From assembly GCA_014379905.1 (NCBI GenBank), contig JACMKX010000144.1:87049-151048 (forward strand): DNA of 64,000 bases. The letters run 5' to 3'. This stretch comes from Ferruginibacter sp. Its GTDB lineage: Bacteria; Bacteroidota; Bacteroidia; Chitinophagales; Chitinophagaceae. Position numbers and translations under genes: made by a program. Shown here one piece after another: positions 41,590-45,301 of the stretch (position 1 is the first letter of the stretch; the number at the start of each line of letters is the position of its first letter). The notes below the pieces were generated by a model. It saw only the letters and a program-made list of their open reading frames with translations, was not told the origin of the DNA and made no database searches.

Positions 41590-41639
41590 CGTTTCAGGAA
41601 ACCTATAAGGTTTTAAAACCTTATAGGTTTCCTGAAACG
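41590..41639. repeat. Perfect 50-bp palindrome, left of RAYT-like gene
   Basis: CGTTTCAGGAAACCTATAAGGTTTT|AAAACCTTATAGGTTTCCTGAAACG, arms exactly reverse complementary. Confidence 0.97.
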
Positions 41640-41691
41640 GGTTTTTTCACATGGTTTAACACAGTTAATATAAGAGATTTATAAAAAATTT

Positions 41692-42318
41692 ATGCCAAAT
41701 CAACACGTACCCTTACTCCCCAATAACTATTACCACCTGTATAACAGGGCGAATGGAGATGACAAACTCTTTCGGTCCGACGAAAATTACTGGTATTTTC
41801 TCCGTAGGATAAAAAAATATATTTTACCTGTAGCTCATTTGTGGACCTACTCCTTAATGCCAAACCATTTCCATTTGTTTGTAAAAATAAAAGAAGACAG
41901 TGTGATTGAAAATTATTATAAAATAAAAAAATTAAAAGAGTTTGATACACGGATTCAACTAATATCCGATTTTATTATGGAGCAATTTAGTAATTGTTTA
42001 AATGGATATGCCAAAGCATTTAATAAGATGTACGATAGAAAAGGTGCATTGTTTATGGATTATTTGAAACGATCAATTGCTTCAGATGATAACGACATTA
42101 CTAGTTTTATTTTTTACAGTCATAAAAATGCAGTGCACCATGACTTAACCGACAAAATCGGACAATGGAAATATGACAGTTACCAGGCGCTTATCTCTAC
42201 TGGTAAAACAGATCTGGCCCGTGCGGAAGTTATCGAATGGTTTGGCTCTACCCAACAATTTATTAAATTTCACAATCAGCCTGTAGATTTGAAAAATAGG
42301 AACAAATATTTTGATTAA
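41692..42318 (+). mobile_element. IS200/REP-associated Y1 transposase-like protein (RAYT-like)
   Basis: 208 aa; NNYYHLYNRANGDDKLFRSDENYWYFLRRIKKY, HUH motif in SLMPNHFHLFVKI, KMYDRKGALFMDYLKR; flanked by related palindromes. Confidence 0.88.
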
Positions 42319-42334
42319 TTGCGTTATAGACCTT

Positions 42335-42377
42335 GTTATAGACCTATAAGGTTTTAAAAACCTTATAGGTCTATAAC
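42335..42377. repeat. Perfect 43-bp palindrome, right of RAYT-like gene
   Basis: GTTATAGACCTATAAGGTTTT-A-AAAACCTTATAGGTCTATAAC, 21-bp arms, 1-nt centre. Confidence 0.97.
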
Positions 42378-42383
42378 AGCACC

Positions 42384-45224
42384 TTACTTACTCAAATGCA
42401 TACTTCTCTCTTTATACAACTGCCGGAAGTATGGATCTTTCAGATCTTTTATAAAACGAATGGCTTCACCTGTACTCTTCATTTCGGGACCTAACTCTTT
42501 ATTTACGCCGGGAAATTTATTAAAAGAAAAAACCGGTTCCTTTATTGCAAAGCCCTCCATCTTTTTTTCGTAGGTAAAATCTGTTACCTTGGCTGCGCCC
42601 AACATTACTTTGGTAGCAATATTTAAATAAGGGATCTGGTATGCTTTTGCGATAAAAGGTGTTGTACGGCTTGCTCTCGGGTTGGCTTCTATCACAAACA
42701 CATTTCCATCCTTAATAGCAAACTGGATATTGATAAGCCCGCGGATATGGAGCGCCCTCGCTATCTTTTCTGCATATTCTTCCATGGTATGCACTATTAA
42801 CGGGCTAAGGTTAAACTGCGGCAGTACCGCATTGCTATCACCACTATGGATACCTGCAGGTTCAATGTGTTCCATTACACCCATCACATGAAAAGTTTCT
42901 CCGTCAAAAATGGCATCTATTTCTGCTTCCTGGCAGCGATCCAAAAAATGGTCGATCAAAATCTTATTCCCCGGCAAATGTTTAATAAGGCTTAATATTC
43001 CATTTTCCAGCTCATCATCATTCAACACAATTCTCATACGTTGTCCGCCAATTACATAACTGGGACGAATGAGTACCGGGTAACCTACCTCCTTTGCAGC
43101 TTCAATAGCCTCATCGGTGTTATAAGCGGTGGCATATTTTGGATAAGGAATGCCCAGTTCTTTTAAACGGTCGCTAAAACGGCCACGGTCTTCAGCAATA
43201 TCCATGTTATCGAAACTGGTGCCGATTATTTTTACGCCTTTCTCATGTAATTTTTTTGCGAGTTTCAAAGCGGTTTGCCCGCCCAGCTGAACAATTACAC
43301 CTTCCGGCTTTTCATGTTCAATGATCTCCCAGATATGTTCCCAAAAAACGGGTTCAAAATATAACTTATCCGCAATATCAAAATCGGTACTCACTGTTTC
43401 AGGATTACAGTTCACCATTATGGCTTCATAACCTAATTCCTTTACTGCCAGCAATCCGTGTACGCAGCAATAGTCAAACTCAATGCCCTGGCCTATCCTG
43501 TTGGGACCACTGCCCAATACAATTATTTTCCTTTTATCAGAAACAATAGATTCATTACTCAACAACTTATTGCCTTCCGGTTTATTTTCAAAAGTTGAAT
43601 AGAAGTAAGGGGTTTTTGCTTCAAACTCGGCGCTGCAGGTATCTACCATTTTAAATACCCTTGTTAAACCCATTGCTTTCCTGCGCTCATAAATATCGTC
43701 CGCGTTTTCTTCCCTCATAATGCGAACGATTTGCTCATCACTAAAGCCGAGCAATTTTGCTTCCGTTAAAAGATCATCCGGCAATGTTTTTAAATCGTAT
43801 TGAGCAATTTGTTTTTCGCAATCACATATTTTTTGGATCTGGTAAATGAACCAGCGGTCTATTAGTGTGCTTTCGCAAATGCGTTTTACACTGGCGCCGG
43901 CCATCAGCGCATCTTTTATCCGGAATATGCGATCCCATTTCGGGATCTTAATGTATTCAATCAGCTCATCTGCATGCATCAAACTCTTGCCATAATAACC
44001 CAGGCCAACGGCTTCATTTTCCAGGCTCTGACAAGCTTTTTGCACTGCTTCGGCAAAACTTCTGCCAATGCCCATTACTTCGCCCACGCTCTTCATTTGA
44101 AAACCGAGCGTGTCATCAGCCCCTTTGAATTTATCAAAATTCCAGCGCGGAATCTTTACGATCACATAATCAAGCGCCGGTTCAAAATAAGCTGAAGTAG
44201 ATTGCGTGATCTGGTTCTTTAATTCATCGAGATTATAACCAATAGCGAGTTTAGCAGCAATTTTTGCAATAGGATAACCGGTTGCTTTACTGGCCAGGGC
44301 AGAAGAGCGGCTCACTCTTGGATTTATTTCTACTACAATTATTTCTTCTGTTTGCGGGTTCATGGCAAACTGAACATTACAACCACCGGCAAAATTACCC
44401 AGGTTGCGCATCATATCTATAGCCGTGTTGCGCATCAGTTGAAAAGCCGTATCACTCAATGTCATAGCTGGTGCCACGGTAATGCTGTCGCCGGTATGAA
44501 CCCCCATTGGATCAAAATTTTCTACCGTACAAATGATCACTACATTATCATTATTATCTCTCAGCAGCTCCAGCTCATATTCTTTCCATCCCAGTACTGC
44601 CTGTTCTACCAACACTTCGTGTATTGGGCTGGCAGTAAGCGCCCTGTTGAGGGCTTCATCTAACTGGTCTTTTTTAAATACAATTCCCCCACCGGTGCCT
44701 CCCAATGTAAAGGAAGGGCGGAGTACCAACGGAAACCCTATATCCTGTGCAAATTCTTTTCCTTCTAAAAATGAATTGGCAATTTTTGCCGGGCAAACCG
44801 GTATACCCATTTCAATCATCCACAGGCGGAATTTTTCCCTGTCTTCCGCTTTATCGATCGCTTTAATATCTACACCTATAAGGTTTACATTGTATTTTTC
44901 CCAAATACCCAGCTCATCCGCTTCCTTACAAAGATTAAGCGCTGTTTGCCCGCCCATGGTAGGCAGCACAGCATCAATATCATTTTCTTCCAATATCTGC
45001 TCAATACTTTCTACGGTAAGTGGTAAAAGATAAACCCTGTCGGCCATCATGGGGTCAGTCATAATGGTGGCAGGATTACTATTTATTAAAATAACTTTTA
45101 TTCCTTCTTCCCGGATGCTACGGGCCGCCTGGGTACCACTGTAATCAAATTCGCAGGCCTGGCCGATAACAATAGGGCCTGAACCAATAATTAGCACTGA
45201 TTTGATAGAATCATTTTTAGGCAT
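42384..45224 (-). CDS. carB: Carbamoyl-phosphate synthase large subunit
   Basis: 946 aa; VLIIGSGPIVIGQACEFDYSGTQA, two ATP-grasp halves, VLGSGPNRIGQGIEFDYCCVH. Confidence 0.96.
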   Translation of the reverse strand: MPKNDSIKSVLIIGSGPIVIGQACEFDYSGTQAARSIREEGIKVILINSNPATIMTDPMMADRVYLLPLTVESIEQILEENDIDAVLPTMGGQTALNLCKEADELGIWEKYNVNLIGVDIKAIDKAEDREKFRLWMIEMGIPVCPAKIANSFLEGKEFAQDIGFPLVLRPSFTLGGTGGGIVFKKDQLDEALNRALTASPIHEVLVEQAVLGWKEYELELLRDNNDNVVIICTVENFDPMGVHTGDSITVAPAMTLSDTAFQLMRNTAIDMMRNLGNFAGGCNVQFAMNPQTEEIIVVEINPRVSRSSALASKATGYPIAKIAAKLAIGYNLDELKNQITQSTSAYFEPALDYVIVKIPRWNFDKFKGADDTLGFQMKSVGEVMGIGRSFAEAVQKACQSLENEAVGLGYYGKSLMHADELIEYIKIPKWDRIFRIKDALMAGASVKRICESTLIDRWFIYQIQKICDCEKQIAQYDLKTLPDDLLTEAKLLGFSDEQIVRIMREENADDIYERRKAMGLTRVFKMVDTCSAEFEAKTPYFYSTFENKPEGNKLLSNESIVSDKRKIIVLGSGPNRIGQGIEFDYCCVHGLLAVKELGYEAIMVNCNPETVSTDFDIADKLYFEPVFWEHIWEIIEHEKPEGVIVQLGGQTALKLAKKLHEKGVKIIGTSFDNMDIAEDRGRFSDRLKELGIPYPKYATAYNTDEAIEAAKEVGYPVLIRPSYVIGGQRMRIVLNDDELENGILSLIKHLPGNKILIDHFLDRCQEAEIDAIFDGETFHVMGVMEHIEPAGIHSGDSNAVLPQFNLSPLIVHTMEEYAEKIARALHIRGLINIQFAIKDGNVFVIEANPRASRTTPFIAKAYQIPYLNIATKVMLGAAKVTDFTYEKKMEGFAIKEPVFSFNKFPGVNKELGPEMKSTGEAIRFIKDLKDPYFRQLYKERSMHLSK

Positions 45225-45272: not shown

Positions 45273-45301
45273 AAATGCGGTGCAAAAAAAGCACCGCATT
45301 T
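45273..45301 (-). terminator. Terminator-like hairpin after MORN protein gene
   Basis: AAATGCGGTGC-aaaaaaa-GCACCGCATTT with T-run on minus strand. Confidence 0.78.

Follow-up and report, generated by a model that had tools for sequence, protein, structure and literature searches.

The closest described relatives of the locus studied here are the RAYT transposases of Bacteroidota assigned by Quentin 2018 to subclass 2.6, corresponding to Bertels group 5, for which unusual flanking structures were already described (PMC6006769). The original prediction of a Bacteroidota counterpart to the RAYT/REP pairs is partly supported, the association itself having been noted before; what looks new is how the arms of the palindromes vary. 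Members of subclass 2.6 share with the present locus their occurrence in Bacteroidota, a distance of ∼82 aa between the HUH motif and the tyrosine, a Y-x-H-x-N motif, the lack of a GTAG foot, and "atypical" structures beside the gene that recur at other sites of the genome (PMC6006769). In the main text of that work these structures are termed weaker and left undefined, whereas here they are perfect palindromes with covarying arms; the families described below clearly define a unit in a branch so far left with "atypical secondary structures". The E. coli TnpA_REP system has in common with the locus the fold, the catalytic residues, a gene flanked by its own REPs and dispersed intergenic copies. 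E. coli REPs, however, carry a GTAG foot and a required stem bulge (PMC8266576), neither of which is found in the present family, and the latter also differs in holding two inverted mini-hairpins within 33 bp. In REPINs (Bertels and Rainey 2011, PMC3116915), similarly, two inverted REP-like halves form one long hairpin that is mobile with a RAYT; in the family studied here the halves directly abut and the whole measures 33 bp. TIRtrons, or TIRYTs (Di Nocera 2013, PMC3733652), are RAYT-like genes flanked by long palindromic repeats which, likewise to those found here, are unrelated to GTAG REPs and have a few solo copies; the portion of that report considered describes neither the present family nor arm covariation. 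Quasipalindrome correction, or template-switch mutation, generates perfect hairpin arms, or restores them, in a single step and has been described for RNA genes and test loci (PMC8794818, PMC7202029). For REP/RAYT repeats, no description of it was found in the papers searched. A literature search with the core sequence returned only unrelated matches among the matches listed, and the main texts searched contained neither the unit definition nor the near-wobble-free arm covariation nor the recurring rewritten arms. The palindrome families bear on how REP elements spread and stay palindromic.

The locus is part of the window, the whole 64-kb stretch of DNA that was analysed. A RAYT-like Y1/HUH transposase gene (41692-42318, plus strand, 208 aa) is placed between two perfect palindromes, the only ones in the window with arms of at least 12 bp (all features other than the gene and its codons are given without strand). 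The left palindrome (41590-41639, 50 bp) consists of two 25-bp arms and a 0-nt loop. Within it the repeat unit AA-ACCTATAAGGTTTT-AAAACCTTATAGGT-TT occupies 32 bp (41599-41630), its centre base being absent, and outside the unit each arm has a further 9 bp that are specific to this locus (CGTTTCAGG/CCTGAAACG). The right palindrome (42334-42378, 45 bp) has 22-bp arms around a 1-nt centre (A); it holds the 33-bp unit AG-ACCTATAAGGTTTT-A-AAAACCTTATAGGT-CT (42340-42372), flanked by 6 locus-specific bp per arm (TGTTAT/ATAACA). Both thus share the core ACCTATAAGGTTTT(A)AAAACCTTATAGGT, while the outer arms, CGTTTCAGG on the left and TGTTAT on the right, are different and yet each fully complementary. 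This anatomy had been laid out in the original prediction, with exact coordinates for the left palindrome and for the ORF between the two; the right palindrome, perfect as claimed, had been given as 43 bp at 42335-42377 and is in fact the longer one described above. When folded as single-stranded DNA, the two palindromes gave z scores of -11.2 and -11.7 relative to shuffled sequences. With background pairing measured at 0.33, the probability that another 9, 8 or 6 flanking positions pair outside the unit is approximately 5e-5, 1.5e-4 and 1.4e-3, respectively. The sequence GTTATAGACCT forms a direct repeat (42323-42345; copies at 42323-42333 and 42335-42345) at the point where the right palindrome's left arm starts, and this is possibly the scar of a template slippage.

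The identity of the protein was examined by profile, sequence and structure searches. A Pfam search with the 208-aa protein gave no match, and its similarity to the NCBIfam model REP_Tyr_transpos (NF047646; E 6e-7, 29.5 bits) was below the cut-off of 80; the same model matched 40 of the 40 aligned homologs tested, with a best E of 1.3e-22. In a PDB sequence search with the family profile the sole match was 4er8 (E 8.9e-7), the E. coli TnpA_REP. The AlphaFold2 model of the protein (pLDDT 94.7) led Foldseek to the same entry (E 1.7e-6), followed by IS200/IS608 transposases. The HUH motif (H59-F60-H61, codons at 41866-41874, plus strand) and the presumed catalytic tyrosine Y142 of the Y-x-H-x-N motif (codon at 42115-42117, plus strand) are both intact: across 62 aligned homologs, H59, H61 and Y142 never vary. 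These results support the original assignment of the gene to the RAYT-type HUH enzymes with a single tyrosine. The distance from H61 to Y142 is 81 residues. Judged by its motifs, the fit of the protein to subclass 2.6 / group 5 appears close but not exact, because the WQ motif and NH[LIV]H of that subclass are not found in it: where subclass 2.6 has WQ, NH[LIV]H and YIH[QN]NP (PMC6006769), the window protein has F121 in place of the W, NHFH and YSHKNA. Of these, F121 is shared by 95% and NHFH by 85% of the 62 aligned homologs, and the family consensus at the tyrosine is YIHxNP. The gene is present in a single copy, the other two RAYT-like genes of the genome being only 32-33% identical to it; there is one full gene per repeat type, unlike multicopy IS, and the pattern of many near-identical copies seen for IS200/IS605 was not observed. 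One such RAYT-like gene (L030, G000 C33:29967-33590) lies between hairpins of its own, imperfect and of another type (CTTCTGAGTGGGTCACCG... and TTCTGCTGGGTGGGGCACC...).

The palindrome is not confined to the locus, as a search of its genome had been expected to reveal: six exact copies of the core were found in the window genome, along with degenerate ones, and none of the reversed-pattern control. A scan of species genomes with the core pattern yielded at least 80 loci, and among the matches listed all were titled Bacteroidota or related FCB lineages; 47 of the listed genomes carry between 1 and 78 exact copies each, again with no hit for the reversed control. The edges of the unit, as derived from 95 copies, are sharp. 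The pair adjoining the core is A-T in 60, G-C in 32 and T-A in 1, with 2 mispaired; the second pair out is A-T in 91, and the third position pairs at chance level. The unit is accordingly 32-35 bp long, usually 33, and reads AR-ACCTATAAGGTTTT-N-AAAACCTTATAGGT-YT, the central spacer usually being one free base (ACCTATAAGG is a unit of the window type, and ACCTGACAGG an example from another palindrome family). Each arm could itself fold into a small hairpin (ACCT-nnn-AGGT), the second arm being an inverted copy of the first. No GTAG (GTRG) was found at the 5' foot of the hairpin, where the unit edge is AR...YT. Only 3 of 94 copies are inside ORFs, which cover 82% of the DNA; the copies are intergenic, at a median of 33 bp from gene 3' ends.

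The relation between palindromes and transposases was tested in several ways. The closest relatives of the RAYT (51-56% identical) have the same core on both sides wherever both flanks are readable, and more distant ones have palindromes of the same plan and another sequence. Among 148 close relatives, 8 genomes have a RAYT of 47% identity or more; the exact core is present in 5 of these, as compared to 4 of the other 140. On the RAYT tree, a quick reconstruction in which many forks are weakly supported, 26 changes of palindrome type are needed, as few as 27 types allow, versus 28-30 after shuffling; for the ATA type alone 3 suffice, where shuffled data need 9 or more. As reconstructed, palindrome type follows the transposase tree, and the families display a co-divergence of transposase and palindrome. 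The two RAYTs of Cnuella takakiae are flanked by different palindrome types within one genome. Copy number was anticipated to track the presence of the gene, and this held in part: of the 47 genomes that bear the palindrome, 35 contain a relative of the gene (E<=1e-10), and the other 12, which count against the REPtron reading given below, have none detectable. One of the latter is the Chitinophagaceae MAG-391 genome (G169), with 24 exact core copies; the gene could have been lost, could fall in a gap of the MAG, or the copies could have been spread by another RAYT. Taken together, these data support the view of the palindromes as a dispersed, transposase-matched repeat. In the Saprospiraceae genome G194, a cognate palindrome copy was also noted within a RAYT gene itself (L240:1624-1648, G194 C137:20560-20584).

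Arm variation was followed across and within genomes. With a search pattern in which only ACCT and AGGT were fixed and both triplets were free, the ACCT-NNN-AGGT families comprised 15 complementary triplet pairs; in the 44 genome-triplet combinations listed, triplets were complementary at 125 of 132 positions, compared to a shuffled maximum of 71, and a few single mispairs were present, including several that are G-T on one strand. Some of the agreement could stem from both halves sharing one recent ancestor, and for this reason the within-genome data weigh more. In G194, 46 exact core copies (the core being constant by choice of the search pattern) have varying outer arms, with double changes in 22 of 35 pairs and a covariation of 0.326, versus 0.118 in shuffled data and at most 0.11 when partners were slid. 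The 16 copies with both outer blocks intact contain 14 different box triplets, in which 47 of 48 pairs are Watson-Crick and none is G-T. The core in Mucilaginibacter arboris, together with a variable box, is enclosed by a conserved outer block (AATCACTA/TAGTGATT). The box reads AAG, ACTG, ATTG, ACAG, ATAG, CCTG or ACTGG and matches between the arms in both sequence and length in most of 28 copies; the arms of a hybrid copy (L244) are unmatched. Two further RAYTs (L238 and L241) have paired palindromes whose core is common to both and whose outer arms differ, each being fully complementary. The expectation that pairing is kept while the sequence changes, and that outer arms covary in other copies, was thus borne out, and the window pair is one example of a wider pattern, as locus-specific outer arms recur in several families. 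Pairing extends 5-11 bp beyond the core, 2 bp of unit included, in 4 of the 6 copies of the window genome; among 85 copies from elsewhere (M. arboris also excluded), 3 reach 5 bp and 79 pair over 3 bp or less beyond the core. A loop-free centre combined with long locus-specific arms is confined to a few copies, mostly of the window genome; the unusually long loop-free hairpins of the original prediction need this correction, the normal unit being the 33-bp form with a 1-nt centre. The possibility that outer arms are usually locus-specific was rejected in view of these sharp 33-bp edges. In one copy of the window genome (L003) the left arm includes the stop codon of an ORF which, from a reading of its sequence, is presumably pheS, and in another (L002) the right arm includes a gene's start codon; both are mirrored across the core, which suggests that host flank served as the template.

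One explanation for these observations, which we consider reasonably probable, is that the locus is a Bacteroidota-type REPtron whose arms stay matched by occasional arm-to-arm copying. Such a REPtron would comprise a domesticated Y1/HUH transposase, present in a single copy, and on either side of it a copy of the REP-like palindrome that belongs to it, with solo copies of the palindrome scattered through intergenic DNA. By analogy to E. coli TnpA_REP, the window protein would most likely recognise the palindromes, binding and cutting the arm hairpins in single-stranded DNA and in this manner spreading the unit. During DNA replication or processing the hairpin may fold and one arm may at times template the other, by template switching or quasipalindrome correction, and it is due to this that the arms would stay complementary while changing; copying past the unit edge would mirror the host flank and generate long locus-specific outer arms. 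That wobble or single-mismatch intermediates are nearly lacking, and that length changes are matched, is expected if arm is copied from arm. The rarity of long locus-specific arms outside the window genome counts against copying, and no copying event was seen directly. Boxes that vary within a genome and are nearly always complementary are natural tests of arm copying, and the families could show whether host replication error or the transposase maintains the hairpins.

A different scenario, rather unlikely in our judgement, is that the hairpin is selected, for example as a transposase binding site, an RNA stability element or a bidirectional terminator, and that its arms change by compensatory point mutation. 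The intergenic position of the palindromes near gene 3' ends, the strong folding of the two palindromes at the locus and the few single mispairs, several of them G-T on one strand, are in line with it; the wobble and single-mismatch intermediates, however, are almost missing from the G194 boxes, only two isolated mismatches were found in 27 arms, and the length changes of the M. arboris box, matched on both arms, are hard to obtain stepwise. T-runs were no more frequent next to the unit (9.2%) than in control windows (10.1%), and the terminator idea was rejected. DNA-templated arm copying fits the arm variation better than either stepwise compensation or terminator selection. Another option is that the 33-bp unit inserts into the centre of pre-existing palindromes, such as terminators or other repeats, the outer arms being the split target halves. 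This would directly yield locus-specific complementary outer arms, and an outer block surrounding box and core, as in M. arboris, speaks for it; nevertheless, we hold it to be unlikely, since the short pairing in most copies indicates that palindromic targets are not the rule, two outer arms of the window genome contain a gene's stop or start codon, and variable triplets, whether between conserved blocks in G194 or in the NNN families, are not readily explained. It is more doubtful still that the transposase makes the palindrome, the 3' end of a single-stranded half-unit snapping back and self-extending during RAYT-driven insertion, and just as improbable that each new copy is born perfect in this way, with a variable box and possibly a mirrored target flank. 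A single snap-back step would give arms that are perfect from the start, centres without a loop and flanks that are mirrored, and such snap-back, if true, would represent a self-templated mode of spread for REP elements. Yet neither half-unit intermediates nor fresh insertions were observed, the predominant copies have sharp 33-bp edges and lack a mirrored flank, and the known chemistry of TnpA_REP is cleavage and strand transfer (PMC8266576).

The genomic setting points to the arrival of the RAYT unit in the window lineage. Its flanking genes, which from a reading of their sequences we take to be carB and a pseudouridine synthase gene, are adjacent in three relatives without a RAYT, with gaps of 32-92 bp, which suggests that the unit was added. 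As the nearest relatives are ∼80% identical in carB, the ancestral flanks are not alignable, and the intergenic DNA is too diverged to reveal the target or the origin of the arms. No clean pair of filled and empty sites was found between the Saprospiraceae sister MAGs G158 and G185, which share one clear orthologous palindrome copy and have many copies within longer repeats. Many of these palindromes (L339, L348, L351 and L353 in G158; L336, L338 and L344 in G185) are in the middle of a repeat of ∼170 bp, 91-98% alike between the two genomes, a larger composite element. Elsewhere in the window, a terminator-like hairpin (AAATGCGGTGC-7 nt-GCACCGCATTT, 45273-45301) is situated between the presumed carB (minus strand, beginning at 45224) and the next ORF, and an unrelated perfect hairpin, TAGCAAACAGGTCGACCACCT-TACGTG-AGGTGGTCGACCTGTTTGCTA, was seen at a gene end in the window genome (L002:2417-2464, G000 C33). 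Finally, four exact ACCTTATAGG-type palindromes form a tandem array with a spacing of exactly 294 bp (L354, G236 C15:174900-176700), which resembles an amplified BIME.
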